Origin: Synergistetes bacterium ADurb.Bin155
GTDB lineage: Bacteria; Synergistota; Synergistia; Synergistales; Thermovirgaceae
Direction: 5' to 3'
NCBI GenBank assembly: GCA_002070395.1
Contig: MWDE01000012.1
Location: 1 to 64,000 of the forward strand
DNA length: 64,000 nucleotides
Shown here one piece after another: positions 11,501-61,918 of this stretch (positions are counted from its first letter, which is position 1; the number at the start of each line of letters is the position of its first letter). Both the position numbers and the translations under genes were made by a program. Below the pieces are notes generated by a model, which saw only the letters and a list, made by a program, of their open reading frames with translations, ran no database searches and was not told the DNA's origin.

Positions 11501-12138
11501 AAGGCCTTGAGCAACACCGTGACGGGCAATTTTTTCCTGTTGTCGATGTTCACCGATAGGACCTCGCCGGGCGTCATGTCGAACTCGAGCCAGGCTCCCC
11601 TGTCGGGGATGACCTTGGCGGAGTAACGCTCCTGCCCCGGGATGGATTCCTCGGAGTTGAAGTAGACGCCCGCCGAGCGGGCCAGCTGGCTGACGACGAC
11701 CCTCTCGGTGCCGTTGATGATGAAGGTCCCTCTTTCGGTCATCATGGGGAAGTCCCCAAGGTAGACCTCCTCTTCCTTGATCTCCTCGGTCTTCCTGTTC
11801 ACCAGGCGGATGGTCGCCCTGACCGACCGGGACCAGGAAAGGTCCCTCTGGATCGCCTCTTCCTGGGTAACCTGGGGGGGGTCGACGAAATAGTCCACGA
11901 ATTCAAGGGCGAAGGAGCCGTCATAGCTCTCGATGGGGAAGACCTCATCGAAGAGCTCCTGGAGACCCTGACTGGATCTCTCATCGGCCTCGATGAGTGC
12001 GCCCTTTTCGTTGAATTGGAAGAACCAGCGGAAGGAATCCCGCTGGATCTCCACCAGGTCGGGGATCTCGACAAGGTCGCGGGTGCGACCGAAGGTGAGG
12101 CGCTGCCGCTTGCTGTTTACGGTAACGAATTCAGCCAT
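8524..12138 (-). CDS. rpoB: RNA polymerase beta subunit
   Basis: Beta subunit, 1204 residues. The rifampicin region is intact: [18 protein letters not shown], then [10 protein letters not shown], with the Asp, His and Ser whose change usually confers resistance all in wild-type form. Other landmarks are [13 protein letters not shown] and, late in the protein, [19 protein letters not shown]. The C-terminus carries an extra acidic tail ending [10 protein letters not shown]. The TAG stop abuts the rpoC ATG, so the two are translationally coupled. Unlike many bacteria, no rplL lies immediately upstream; instead a promoter within a hairpin and a tRNA gene precede it. Confidence 0.98.
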
Positions 12139-12199
12139 GGGAGAAACACAACCTCCCTGTCTCTAGGGGATTTGGGGAAACAAGACGTGACAAACTAAA

Positions 12200-12228
12200 A
12201 GAATAGCGAAAGGGCTGTGCTCTGTCAA
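12200..12228 (-). promoter_or_regulatory. rpoBC promoter
   Basis: Minus-strand TTGACA (12228-12223), 17-base spacer, TATTCT (12205-12200). The predicted start near 12193 leaves a leader of about 55 bases before rpoB. The spacer and -35 box lie inside the 15-base-pair inverted repeat at 12207-12250. Confidence 0.7.
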
Positions 12229-12250
12229 TAGGCACAGCACAACCCTTTCG
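12207..12250 (-). terminator. Long hairpin between tRNA-Leu and rpoB, overlapping the rpoB promoter
   Basis: 12207-12221 and 12236-12250 are inverted copies matching at 14 of 15 positions (arms beginning CGAAAGGG), separated by 14 bases. Read on the minus strand the stem is followed by CTATTCTTTTAG, a weak U-rich tract, so it could terminate the tRNA transcript. Because the arm overlaps the rpoB -35/-10 interval, it could also be a regulator site. Which role applies cannot be told from sequence. Confidence 0.5.
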
Positions 12251-12310
12251 GTTTTCTCCTGGTACGATCACCGTTTTTCACCACCCGCCGACGGGGTGGA
12301 CTGTATTTTA

Positions 12311-12396
12311 TGGTGGGGAAGGGGGGATTTGAACCCCCACACCCTTACGGACACTGGCTCCTGAAGCCAGCGCGTCTACCGTTCCGCCACTTCCCC
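12311..12396 (-). tRNA. tRNA-Leu, anticodon CAG
   Basis: The complement folds as a class II tRNA of 86 bases with encoded CCA. The acceptor stem GGGGAAG pairs with CTTCCCC. The anticodon stem CTGGC/GCCAG encloses the loop TTCAGGA, giving anticodon CAG. The T arm is GGGGG-TTCAAAT-CCCCC. The long variable arm is typical of leucine tRNAs. A dedicated promoter lies 24-52 bases upstream. Confidence 0.96.
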
Positions 12397-12419
12397 GGGT
12401 CCTGGTACCAACGCCGTTG

Positions 12420-12448
12420 ATTTTATCAACGGGGGGACCTTTTTGCAA
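12420..12448 (-). promoter_or_regulatory. tRNA-Leu promoter
   Basis: Minus-strand TTGCAA (12448-12443), 17-base spacer, TAAAAT (12425-12420). The predicted start near 12412 precedes the mature tRNA 5' end (12396) by about 16 bases, a normal pre-tRNA leader length. Confidence 0.65.
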
Positions 12449-12460
12449 CAGGGGTTGGTA

Positions 12461-12492
12461 AAGGGGCGCGGCACCAAGGCACCGCGCCCCTT
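12461..12492 (-). terminator. Strong GC hairpin beyond the adh gene and repeat array
   Basis: Perfect 11-base arms (AAGGGGCGCGG at 12461-12471 and its complement at 12482-12492) around a 10-base loop. There is no clear U tract on either strand, so an intrinsic terminator is only likely. Transcription of the alcohol dehydrogenase gene would reach it after passing through the repeat array. Confidence 0.4.
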
Positions 12493-12507
12493 AACAGTTC
12501 ACGCCTT

Positions 12508-12744
12508 TCGCTTTTGCTTTTGACTTTGCCTTTGTCTTTGCTTTGGCTTTGCCTTTGGCCTTGGCTTTGGTTTTGGCCTTGGCTTTGGTTTTGGCCTTGG
12601 CTTTGGTTTTGGCCTTGGCCTTGGCTTTGCCTTTAGCTTCACGATTTCCGATTCACGATTCACGATTCACGGCTTTTTCGATTCACGATTTACGATTTAC
12701 GCTTCACGATTCACGATTCACGATTCACGATTTACGGATTTTAG
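12508..12744 (-). repeat. Compound heptamer/hexamer repeat array, copy 1
   Basis: This fills most of the interval between tRNA-Leu and the alcohol dehydrogenase gene. Read on the minus strand it starts 3 bases after the adh stop with AAAATCCGTAAATCG. Degenerate 7-base units (GTGAATC/GTAAATC; about 12744-12637) follow, then 6-base units of the type CAAGGC, CAAAGC and CAAAAC with an 18-base higher-order period (about 12636-12508). There are no spacers, so it is not CRISPR. No gene is believed to lie inside. The same heptamer-then-hexamer order recurs at 60866-61034 and 61484-61918. Confidence 0.9.
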
Positions 12745-12745
12745 T

Positions 12746-13906
12746 TTACCCCTTGTGAGCCTTTTTGAAGAGCTCCAGGTAGCCCTTTCGGTCGATCTTC
12801 CTCGGGTTGCTCTCGGTGGACATGTTCTCCTCCGACAGCAGGGCCAGTTTTTCCAGGTCCTCTTCCTTCACGTTGAGCGATCTGAAACTGGGGAGCCCTA
12901 TCTCCTTCGAAAGGGCCCTGATCTTTTCAATGCCGAGGACGGCGGCCCGCCGGTCATCGTCCTCCTTTATGCCCATCGCCCGGGCGACCCGGGCGTACTT
13001 GTATTCCGCCTCCGGCAGGTTGTATTCCATCACGAAGGGGAGCAGGATGGCGTTGCACAGCCCGTGGGGCGCGTCGTACATCCCCCCGAGGGATTCCGCC
13101 ATGCAGTGGACGGAGGCCACGTCGGAATGGCTGAAGGAAATGCCGCCCAGCAGGCTGCCCAGGAGCATCTCCGACCTGGCTCCCAGGTTATCGCCGTGAT
13201 GGACCGCCTCGACGATGTTGGAGGCTATCATCTCGACGGCGTAAAGGCCGACCGCCTCTGCGATGGGTTCCGTTGCCGTCGCGGTGTAACCCTCAATGGC
13301 GTGGGTCAGAGCGTCGATGCCGGTGGAGGCGGTGACAGCCGGCGGGACCGTCAGCGTAAGCTCCGGGTCCAGGAGGGCCACCTTGGCCGCTATCTTGGTG
13401 CTCCTCATGGAAAACTTGTAGTTCTTCTCCGTGTCGGTTATCACCGAAGCGAAGGTGACCTCGCTGCCGGTGCCGGCGGTGGTCGGAATGGTCACCAGCG
13501 GCAGGCACTCGCCCTTGACCTTCTCCTTGCCCTTGTAATCCTGGGCCCTGCCGCCGAGGGGGGCCAGGATGCAGACGACCTTGGCCGCGTCGATGGGGCT
13601 GCCCCCGCCGAGGGCCACCACGCAGTCGGCGCCCATTTCCCTGGCCACCGCCGCGCCTTCTTCGGTGTTACGATCCTTGGGGTTGGCCTCCACCCCATCA
13701 AAGACCTCGTAATGGACCTTCCCCTCGAGGCTCTTCGCGACCCTGTCCAGCAGGCCGGCCTTGATGATGCCCTTGTCCGTCACGATCAGGACCTTTTTCG
13801 CGCCAAGAGCCTCCAGCTCCCGGCCGAGTTCGCCCGAGACACCGAGTCCGAAACTGATCCTGGTGGGCAGGATGAAATCAAAACTGCTCATGAAACTCAT
13901 TGTCAT
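12746..13906 (-). CDS. Iron-containing alcohol dehydrogenase
   Basis: A 386-residue member of the group III (iron-dependent) NAD(P)-dependent alcohol dehydrogenases, which interconvert alcohols and aldehydes or ketones, commonly in fermentation. The dinucleotide-binding GGGSPIDAAK is at about 100-109 and TTAGTGSE at 142-149. The expected metal ligands are D198, H202, H267 and H281. The frame opens with GTG-GTG-ATG; the ATG at 13906 is preferred because AAGGA lies 10 bases upstream. It stands alone between the NSS terminator and the repeat array. Substrate cannot be deduced; butanol or 1,3-propanediol dehydrogenase-like activities are all possible. Confidence 0.9.
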   Translation of the reverse strand: MTMSFMSSFDFILPTRISFGLGVSGELGRELEALGAKKVLIVTDKGIIKAGLLDRVAKSLEGKVHYEVFDGVEANPKDRNTEEGAAVAREMGADCVVALGGGSPIDAAKVVCILAPLGGRAQDYKGKEKVKGECLPLVTIPTTAGTGSEVTFASVITDTEKNYKFSMRSTKIAAKVALLDPELTLTVPPAVTASTGIDALTHAIEGYTATATEPIAEAVGLYAVEMIASNIVEAVHHGDNLGARSEMLLGSLLGGISFSHSDVASVHCMAESLGGMYDAPHGLCNAILLPFVMEYNLPEAEYKYARVARAMGIKEDDDRRAAVLGIEKIRALSKEIGLPSFRSLNVKEEDLEKLALLSEENMSTESNPRKIDRKGYLELFKKAHKG

Positions 13907-13949
13907 CACCACTTGTTCCTTGGATTGTAATGATCCCCGTACATTTTCG

Positions 13950-13986
13950 ATGAAGAAGAAGGACCCGGCTGTACAGCCGGGTCCTT
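13950..13986 (-). terminator. Terminator after the NSS transporter gene
   Basis: The arms of AAGGACCCGGCTGTACAGCCGGGTCCTT (13959-13986) form a near-perfect hairpin. On the minus strand it is followed by CTTCTTC, a pyrimidine-rich rather than pure-U tail. It lies 20 bases after the transporter stop and separates it from the alcohol dehydrogenase gene. Confidence 0.7.
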
Positions 13987-14005
13987 GGACCTCACGGTAC
14001 AGTTG

Positions 14006-15424
14006 CTACAGTTTTTTGGAGAACAGCGCCAGAACGCCGATGACCACTACGCCGAAGATCATCAGGCTCTGCTGCTCGATCGCCATGATGCCCGATACGG
14101 CCACCACCGCCACGAGGACGGGGATGACGTACTTTATCACGGCATACCATGTTTCGAAGAGGGCGAAGGGGAGCGCCCCCCTGTTCGTGGCCTCGAGCTT
14201 CACTTCCTCCTTGTTCAGGACCCAGCCGACGTAAATGGCAAGGCACATCCCACCGATGGCAAGGAATATCTTATCCGTCAGGATGTCGAAGAAGTCGAAG
14301 ACGCCGACGCCGAACACGCTAAAGCCGGACATCACGCCCAGGGAGAGCGAGGAGAGGATGCATATCACCGTCGTGACAGCGGAAGAAATGTAGGTCGCTT
14401 TCTTCCTGGACATGCCCTTCTCGTCCATGAAGTAGGCGACGACGGTCTCGAGCAGGCCCACCGAGGAGGTCAGGGCGGCGATGGCCAGGGCGAGGAAGAA
14501 CACGAAGGAGAAGAGCACCCCTATGCCGCCCATCTGGGCGAACACCTGGGGGACGACCACGAAGACGAGGCCGGTCCCAGCTGTGGGCTCGACGCCGAAG
14601 GCGAAGAGGGCCGGGAAGATGGCTATGCCGGCAAGGATGGCCGCCAGAGTGTCCATGGAGACCACCGTCAGGGCATCGCTGGGGAGGTGTTCGTCCTTCT
14701 TAAGGTAACTGCCGTAGGTTATCATTACGCCCATGCCGAGGCTGAGCGAGAAGAAGGCCTGCCCCAGGGCCGCCAGGAAGGTCTTGCCCGTCACAACCGA
14801 CCAGTCGGGTTTGAAAAGGAACGTGAGGCCCGCCCCCGAACCGGGAAGGCTGAGGCTTTTGATTATGATGATCACTAACAGACCGAACAGCATGGGCATG
14901 AGTATCTTGCTGGTCAACTCGATACCGCCGGAGACGCCCTTGGCGACGACAAACAGATTCACCGCCAGGAAAATGAGCGTCCAGATCACGGGCTCGAGGG
15001 GCGCCGTGATGAAGGCGCCGAAGTAATCGGCGATGGCCCCCGGGTTAGATAGCAGCCCGGTCAGCGACTTGACCATGTAGGCCACGGCCCAGCCGCCCAC
15101 CACGGGGTAGAAGCAGTAGATGAAGAATGAGCTTATGACCCCGAGGACCCCTACGAAGGTCCAGTTCCTGTGCCTGCTTTTGAAGGCTCCGACGGAGGCA
15201 AGCCCGGTCCCCCTGCCGACGACGAACTCTCCGAGCATTATGCTTAGACCAACGAAAAGGACGCAACCAAGGTAGATCACTATGAAAGCCCCGCCGCCGT
15301 TCATCCCCGTCAGGTAAGGGAACCTCCAGATGTTCCCCAACCCGATCGCCGAACCTGCCGCCGCCATGATGAAGCCAAACCTGGTACCCCAACTCTCTCT
15401 TGCCTTCTGTTCCCCTTGTGGCAT
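14006..15424 (-). CDS. Neurotransmitter:sodium symporter (NSS) family transporter
   Basis: A 472-residue polytopic membrane protein with about 11-12 hydrophobic segments. The first carries the family hallmark GSAIGLGNIWRFPYL at about residues 24-38, where substrate and sodium are bound in LeuT-type transporters. Bacterial members import amino acids with sodium, suiting an amino-acid-fermenting anaerobe, but the substrate is not identifiable here. The ATG at 15424 has GGGAGGGAG upstream. It is a single-gene unit with a promoter and a long leader upstream and a terminator downstream. Confidence 0.93.
   Translation of the reverse strand: MPQGEQKARESWGTRFGFIMAAAGSAIGLGNIWRFPYLTGMNGGGAFIVIYLGCVLFVGLSIMLGEFVVGRGTGLASVGAFKSRHRNWTFVGVLGVISSFFIYCFYPVVGGWAVAYMVKSLTGLLSNPGAIADYFGAFITAPLEPVIWTLIFLAVNLFVVAKGVSGGIELTSKILMPMLFGLLVIIIIKSLSLPGSGAGLTFLFKPDWSVVTGKTFLAALGQAFFSLSLGMGVMITYGSYLKKDEHLPSDALTVVSMDTLAAILAGIAIFPALFAFGVEPTAGTGLVFVVVPQVFAQMGGIGVLFSFVFFLALAIAALTSSVGLLETVVAYFMDEKGMSRKKATYISSAVTTVICILSSLSLGVMSGFSVFGVGVFDFFDILTDKIFLAIGGMCLAIYVGWVLNKEEVKLEATNRGALPFALFETWYAVIKYVIPVLVAVVAVSGIMAIEQQSLMIFGVVVIGVLALFSKKL

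Positions 15425-15750: not shown

Positions 15751-15758
<8 letters not shown>
15713..15758 (-). terminator. Terminator of the long morphogenesis/RNA-modification gene run
   Basis: It begins within the last codons of sua5. Minus-strand arms GGCC...TGAGA pair with TCTCA...GGCC, with an internal bulge, followed by ATTTTTTT. It ends the co-directional series that starts near 42.8 kb. Confidence 0.55.
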
Positions 15759-18664
<2,906 letters not shown>

Positions 18665-60865: not shown

Positions 60866-61034
60866 GTAAAATCCGTAAATCGGAAAATCCGTGAATCGTA
60901 AACCGTTAATCGTTAATCGAAAAACCAAAATCGGAAAACGAGGATCAAAACCATGAATCGTGAATCGGAAACAAAATCCGTAAATCGTAAATCGGGAACC
61001 GTAAACCAGAAACCCAAGGCAAAGGCAAAAGTCG
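60866..61034 (+). repeat. Compound heptamer/hexamer repeat array, copy 2
   Basis: Read on the plus strand: AAAATCCGTAAATCG, then degenerate units GTGAATC/GTAAATC/GTTAATC interleaved with GAAAATCC-like spacers to about 61010. CCCAAGGCAAAGGCAAAAG (61012-61030) follows. It is more decayed than the other copies. Orientation is opposite to copies 1 and 3. It fills most of the gap between the secreted-protein gene and the four-helix-bundle gene; the rest (61035-61091) has a perfect small hairpin, ATCGGGG-TGA-TCCCCGAT, near 61064-61081. Confidence 0.88.
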
Positions 61035-61091: not shown

Positions 61092-61475
61092 TTAATCTCT
61101 AAGTGACCGAATCAACCCACAAAGCATTTGGAAAATCCTGTCGGCTTTTTTATAAATGGGACTCCCGTCTTGCAGATATCCCAGATCAGCGGCCAGGCGG
61201 CACTGGGTCTCCAGTTCTCCCAGCGAACCCCTAGCTATCATCAGGAACCGGAGAAAATCCTTCCTAGAACCTCTGCATGCGCCTTCTGCTATGTTGCTTG
61301 GAATTGATACCGCGCAGCGTCTCAACTGCCCGGTCAACCCGTAGCGTTCCTCCGAGGGGAAACCCTTTGTGGCTTTGTAAATATCCTTAGCCAGTTCCAT
61401 GGCTTGATTCCATACATCAAGATTACAATGAGGTCTCATACTTGTGGACAAATCGGAATAATCCCCCTTGATCAT
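61092..61475 (-). CDS. Four-helix-bundle protein of the 23S rRNA intervening-sequence (S23/IVP) family
   Basis: 127 residues. Family hallmarks are LRRCAVSIPSNIAEGACRGS and GSLGELETQCRLAADLGYL, in an all-helical basic protein. Such genes occur inside 23S rRNA insertions of some bacteria and as stand-alone genes; the fold matches Avd of diversity-generating retroelements, which binds reverse transcriptase and RNA. No rRNA or reverse transcriptase is here. Codons are visibly less GC-rich than in neighbouring genes. ATG 61475 (or 61439) is possible; the sequence just before 61475 is itself repeat-derived. It lies between two inverted repeat arrays. Confidence 0.85.
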   Translation of the reverse strand: MIKGDYSDLSTSMRPHCNLDVWNQAMELAKDIYKATKGFPSEERYGLTGQLRRCAVSIPSNIAEGACRGSRKDFLRFLMIARGSLGELETQCRLAADLGYLQDGSPIYKKADRIFQMLCGLIRSLRD

Positions 61476-61483
61476 TCATCGAT

Positions 61484-61918
<435 letters not shown>

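Follow-up and report, generated by a model that had tools for sequence, protein, structure and literature searches.

Tandem heptamers scattered in intergenic DNA are known in cyanobacteria as STRR sequences. The arrays described here belong to another phylum, the Synergistota, and are built from other words; in the accessible accounts of the STRRs we know of no inverted pairs of arms and no IVP. The closest array families are the STRRs and the TAACTGA repeats, and the closest element is the intervening sequence (IVS) of rRNA.

TAACTGA heptamer repeats occur in the Beggiatoaceae, cyanobacteria and Bacteroidetes and, when read in one orientation, contain stops in every frame; like the present arrays they are intergenic heptamers in tandem found at many sites (accessible part of PMC4679880). 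However, the units here are GTGAATC and GTAAATC rather than TAACTGA, and the TAACTGA repeats, unlike our arrays, directly precede start codons in most cases in one genome (same part of PMC4679880). The terms 'four helix', 'intervening sequence' and 'S23' are absent from the text of that paper. In Coxiella the 23S rRNA IVS has three tandem heptamers before the start of S23p, the number being variable between strains, and it is excised by RNase III (accessible part of PMC4990558). The complete element discussed below likewise has an IVP gene between inverted complementary ends. It differs in that the elements are outside rRNA, the arms are long arrays of a word, and most sites have no gene. The array at 12.5 kb differs further in being single-armed and lying between adh and tRNA-Leu, and cutting by RNase III is here a prediction. 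The IVP of the window (i.e. the whole 64-kb stretch that was analysed) matches the model of Avd, a protein of diversity-generating retroelements, weakly (21.5 bits, E = 2e-4, where the cut-off is 80 bits). In the accessible part of the open-access literature we found no account of IVP genes outside rRNA being flanked by matched inverted arms of repeats.

The array between adh and tRNA-Leu

The array and its surroundings comprise the following features.

12311-12396, minus strand: tRNA-Leu (CAG)
12420-12448, minus strand: tRNA-Leu promoter-like site, TTGCAA - 17 - TAAAAT
12463-12490, strand not applicable: GC-rich inverted repeat between the array and the tRNA promoter-like site, identified by eye
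12508-12637, minus strand: hexamer part of the array, GCCAAG/GCCAAA/GGCAAA units; TRF periods 6 and 36 (call spans 12505-12639) and shuffle test
12638-12742, minus strand: heptamer part of the array, GTGAATC/GTAAATC units; TRF period 7 (call spans 12638-12736) and shuffle test
12746-13912, minus strand: adh, iron-containing alcohol dehydrogenase gene; Pfam PF00465 and PF25137, both above cut-off
15751-16761, minus strand: Sua5-type L-threonylcarbamoyladenylate synthase gene; TIGR00057 above cut-off; adjoins the tRNA-Leu spacer in relatives

Reading the minus strand (i.e. the sense of adh), the adh stop codon is followed by three bases, AAAATCC, units of GTAAATC and GTGAATC, and then units of GGCAAA, GCCAAG and GCCAAA. 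Beyond the hexamers lie the GC-rich hairpin, the tRNA-Leu promoter-like site and finally the tRNA-Leu gene. The lag-7 self-identity of the heptamer part is 0.75, compared with 0.26 +/- 0.05 in shuffled sequence, and the lag-6 self-identity of the hexamer part is 0.79, compared with 0.37 +/- 0.05; in each case the value was reached by none of 1000 dinucleotide shuffles. The array at 12508-12744 has one orientation only, and lacks the terminal inverted repeats expected of a MITE. In a comparison of positions 12100-14000 with Rfam the tRNA was the sole match above the gathering score.

The initial annotation placed the heptamers before the hexamers when read from adh, set the start of the array (the position of AAAATCCGTAAATCG) three bases past the adh stop, and assigned the array to a 3′ UTR position; all of this holds. 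The opening word AAAATCCGTAAATCG does recur at 61 kb: it reads on the minus strand at 12728-12742, and on the plus strand at 60868 and again at 60973. A further word said to be common, GCAAAAGTC, is absent from the 12.5-kb array, where GCAAAGTC and GTCAAAAGC stand instead. The strong hairpin reported after the array can be recognized by eye as the GC-rich hairpin at 12463-12490, but it is not listed by a simple terminator scan.

Arrays in the genome and its relatives

There are 48 exact matches to GATTYACGATTYACGATT in the assembly (1.9 Mb in 80 contigs) and 62 matches to four consecutive CGTRANN units, with no match to either pattern when reversed. Together the two patterns mark 19 sites, those more than 1 kb apart being counted as separate, so that tandem 7-base units are present at many intergenic sites in the manner of STRRs. 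The array had been described as an orphan third copy of its repeat. These terms mislead, and the array is not a rarity, since the arrays at 61 kb are the two arms of one element and the genome contains 19 array sites as against one IVP gene.

The GATTYACGATTYACGATT pattern was present in seven of 61 genomes, comprising seven of the ten of the same family and none of the 51 of other families. CGTRANN was found in the same seven and, with other words, in five genomes of two other families; matches to the reversed patterns were limited to a single genome (G059) in both searches. PF05635 is matched once in the genome studied here (G000), twice in G004, once in G005 and not in the other seven family genomes, and G008 has 48 heptamer matches yet no IVP. 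An array without an IVP gene is the rule, and IVP is rare beside these arrays. Pairs of array clusters no more than 700 bp apart number 22 in 51 sequences. Seventeen are arranged head-to-head, one in the opposite sense and four on the same strand, and two of the head-to-head pairs enclose IVP genes. We note that the heptamer arrays at one place in G004 (C57, L117:3994-4358) flank an apparent 5S rRNA gene (by eye) in outward order, opposite to the usual head-to-head arrangement.

Comparison of the orthologous spacers 5′ of tRNA-Leu, which had been proposed as a check, proved informative; array-free, array-only and arms-plus-IVP states are all observed. The spacer is array-free in G006, G007 and G009 (best lag-7 window 15, 10 and 8 of 24 respectively). 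Heptamers without IVP are found in G000, G001, G005 and G008 (23, 18, 21 and 21 of 24), the G008 contig terminating within the spacer array. The G004 spacer (19 of 24) contains full arms plus IVP. There the IVP gene has a CGTGACTC/CGTGAGAC arm on one side and a GTCTCAC-type arm on the other, on a contig that terminates past the Sua5-type gene; the last 19 bases of this contig are the exact reverse complement of the end of the rpoB contig, by which the two were joined. The states thus cover the ten family genomes as three array-free, four with heptamers and one complete, with G002 and G003 left unassigned; G015 was unscored. Outside the Thermovirgaceae, tRNA-Leu of G018 has no adjoining heptamers (best lag-7 window 9 of 24).

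The Sua5-type gene adjoins the tRNA-Leu/rpoB end in G001, G005, G006, G007, G009, G015 and G018, and was not found in G010 within the stretch seen by the tRNA-Leu/rpoB end. In G001, G004, G005 and G008 the array supplies both the tail of the Sua5-type protein and its stop codon, at the same point in the gene in all four despite the different words. In G000 adh and a transporter separate the Sua5-type gene from the array. In G002 adh follows the Sua5-type gene after 125 bp of array-free sequence, on a contig that stops inside adh, and therefore the insertion of adh probably took place on the side of the array that faces the Sua5-type gene, judging by gene order. The same junction led us to reject the array as a rearrangement breakpoint.

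Array sites persist while their words change. When 20 kb of the G000 genome are aligned with G001 and G004, the alignment is interrupted at four array sites and in one spacer that is array-free in G000. Heptamer periodicity (at least 18 of 24) was found at four of five further spacers in G000, at all five in G004 and at three in G001 (where the scores are 15 at A and 13 at B). Between genomes the five shared spacers differ in their words; at spacer D the array was lost from, or never present in, G000. G002 has two array sites in common with G000, one of them with fewer units. Since some relatives are array-free and others have different words, words turn over where they stand, at old sites. 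A gradual growth in situ from unrelated sequence had been put forward as the outcome that would argue against related copies; the result is intermediate, relatives being array-free or occupied by other words. A 167-bp piece with a non-repetitive core is 93% alike at sites on contigs 4 and 10 of the G000 genome, in opposite orientation, and by eye part of the core can also be seen in G001, at the contig-10 site. The presence of this segment at separate sites indicates that pieces are copied between sites.

In four of six array-bearing relatives the rpoB contig stops at or beside tRNA-Leu (G002, G003, G004 and G008; L143, L145, L146 and L147). Array counts in these assemblies are therefore probably underestimates, and the arrays may explain why the contigs end there.

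IVP elements in the window and in other bacteria

The element at 61 kb has three parts.

60868-61031, plus strand: left arm of the IVP element; TRF, shuffle test and inverted match to the right arm
61092-61475, minus strand: four-helix-bundle (IVP/S23) gene; TIGR02436 and PF05635 above cut-offs; PDB match 2gsc, E = 1.5e-35
61496-61901, minus strand: right arm of the IVP element, extending into the 3′ end of murJ; TRF and arm match

This element is situated between a small gene and murJ, outside the 23S rRNA gene. Its arms match locally with a score of 68.5 inverted compared with 6.0 direct, and thus it has the inverted complementary ends of an IVS, which are lacking from the single-armed 12.5-kb array. 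The heptamers are outside and the hexamers inside, and in this layout the 12.5-kb array corresponds to a single arm. The kinship with the arrays flanking the four-helix-bundle gene is borne out by this common outer-to-inner layout. As stated in the initial annotation there is no four-helix-bundle gene at 12.5 kb, the sole IVP match of the assembly being that at 61 kb. The open reading frame of an IVS is accordingly missing from the 12.5-kb spacer, and is present in the orthologous spacer of G004. On folding four elements, each was more stable than all 20 of its arm-shuffled versions. Arm-to-arm pairs exceeded those of all 20 arm-shuffled folds in two of the four (the window IVP element and site A), and not in L094 or the G004 element. 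These predicted folds mildly support a model of pairing arms. The murJ stop codon lies inside the right arm (61870-61901), like the Sua5-type stop in four relatives. One arm also contains a GGTTTCC array (61554-61640, 12 copies, 90% regular), a word without the TGA or TAA of its neighbours.

A search of named genomes gave seven IVP loci, one of which is UBA4066; the other six are in Chitinophagales, Opitutaceae, Bryobacterales, Planctomycetota, Methanoregulaceae and Klebsiella records. The Klebsiella locus is a partial match without heptamers, and was left out of later tests. Whole-genome searches of the other five hosts gave a first set of 31 matches; a match that had no locus was dropped, which left 30, some of them coinciding in place. 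A second set comprised 29 new loci, the best from each of 29 genomes that belong to the same class as one of the hosts (61 genomes searched, 50 with a match). The lag-7 threshold was passed by 26 of 60 IVP flanks in the first set, compared with none of 114 control segments, and by 29 of 57 flanks in the second, compared with 3 of 110 controls. Period 8 also passes (12 of 57 second-set flanks, 1 of 110 controls), and therefore seven is the mode rather than a law.

The two arms of a locus share their word in the inverted sense, the match exceeding the 95th percentile of cross-locus pairs at 26 of 28 and 24 of 30 loci in the two sets; in the direct sense this was so for 4 of 28 and 4 of 30. In this small sample, whose hosts include metagenome assemblies, matched inverted arms are present at 50 of 58 IVP loci (one with a cut flank having been left out of the arm tests) and absent from eight, compared with 1 of 54 control pairs of distant segments from the same loci. 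Both ends keep one word while elements differ, and so some process may copy or correct arm against arm. The purine fraction is above one half in 23 of 30 upstream arms and below it in 14 of 25 downstream arms, which is a tendency only. Arms carrying stop codons were rejected as a general rule, all-frame stops being found inward in 16 of 55 arms of these loci and outward in 16 of 55. Two loci of G062 (L178 and L201) have the arm words GAATCCA and GCCGAAC, each common to its own two arms, and the L158 locus has AACTGA/TCAGTT arms, related to TAACTGA.

Origin of the single array

We propose that the 12.5-kb array is a solo arm, i.e. an IVP-less derivative of a family of small intergenic elements, a reading to which we give an even chance. 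A complete element would consist of two inverted arms with a four-helix-bundle (IVP/S23) gene between them. In each arm a short word, mostly of seven bases, would be repeated in tandem; this word is common to the arms of one element and different between elements. Like the 23S rRNA intervening sequences such an element would fold out of the transcript; by analogy, its arms may pair there and be cut by RNase III. IVP may act on the arms, and the element may be mobile. Slippage would renew the words, and copying between arms and sites would keep the arms matched. Where IVP is missing, the arrays would be decayed or non-autonomous forms. Heptamers would have occupied the Sua5-tRNA-Leu spacer since before the split of the array-bearing genera of the Thermovirgaceae, G004 keeping the complete element and G000 one arm, now beside adh, presumably after IVP and the other arm were lost. 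Several observations weigh against a solo arm. There is no second arm at 12.5 kb, only one orthologous site links the array with IVP, and IVP is absent from seven of ten family genomes. The G005 arms match no less well directly (28.5) than inverted (24.5), and array edges are too variable to define a target-site duplication. IVP may also be a gain of G004 rather than a loss of G000.

The arrays might alternatively be autonomous tandem repeats that arise and turn over by replication slippage and gene conversion, like the cyanobacterial STRRs, with IVP genes as passengers. That 18 of the 19 G000 sites have no IVP would be expected on this basis, as would the in-place variation in words and unit numbers, including that between G002 and G000 and that of the heptamers before S23p among Coxiella strains (PMC4990558, accessible part). 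Plain slippage would not, however, lead us to expect matched inverted arms at 50 of 58 IVP loci, the 17 to 1 excess of head-to-head pairs, or the 167-bp non-tandem segment copied between sites, and we view this explanation as possible but rather doubtful. Retention by selection, the arrays supplying all-frame stops and RNA structure at gene ends as a regulatory or protective 3′ UTR, would account for the TGA or TAA found on the gene-sense strand of the common array words in Thermovirgaceae, the array-derived Sua5-type stop in all four genomes where the junction is seen, and array-gene overlaps that lie at 3′ ends in 11 of 11 cases (from crude gene calls). The predicted fold of the 12.5-kb array is also more stable than its shuffles (-51.7 compared with -41.3 +/- 4.0 for 100 shuffles). 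Yet arrays also face 5′ ends (60 vs 46 on the outer side, and 175 vs 217 for all gaps of at least 80 bp), all-frame stops are as frequent outward as inward in other bacteria, and the spacer is array-free in three relatives, as is spacer D in G000; selection of this kind is unlikely to be the explanation.

The array neighbours a tRNA, and its flanking genes vary (adh and a transporter in G000; the Sua5-type gene directly in G001, G005 and, on the joined contig, G004), as might be expected for the remnant of a mobile island integrated at a tRNA gene. But the array precedes the 5′ end of the tRNA and is roughly 60 bp upstream of the promoter-like site, a position that speaks against the integration site suggested initially. 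No tRNA 15-mer recurs within the 64-kb window, in agreement with the earlier remark that there is no att-like duplication, and the same spacer holds heptamers in relatives without adh. Moreover, no tRNA gene is present in the stretches around 15 of 18 other array sites, nor at the 61-kb site (two sites were left out). A mobile island is very improbable, and from these positions the tRNA beside the array looks incidental. No similar DNA was found in a phage or plasmid collection, a search weakened by the simple-repeat filter, and we did not retain a phage or plasmid origin.

The solo-arm reading may extend more widely. IVP/S23 genes outside rRNA may be widespread small selfish elements with matched inverted arrays of an element-private word, the gene-less arrays being their non-autonomous form and the rRNA intervening sequences a special case that landed in 23S rRNA; we put this a little short of an even chance. 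The hitherto puzzling S23/IVP family gains a testable context outside rRNA in the matched word-array arms, and the literatures on rRNA intervening sequences and intergenic heptamer repeats are joined. The spacer beside tRNA-Leu permits array-free, array-only and complete forms to be compared at one orthologous site.

We note two further repeats near the arrays. A separate repeated element, GGGGTCAGACCTTGAATTTGAGCA.TTGTATAC, is found just outside several arrays of the G000 genome (L095:3960-3990, L096:4050-4085 and 14040-14100, L099:4100-4150). The array spacers of G001 (L144:2740-3110, L242, L245 and L246) contain a second word family, e.g. CACAGAGAACACAGAG / CTCTGTGGTG, with inverted copies.
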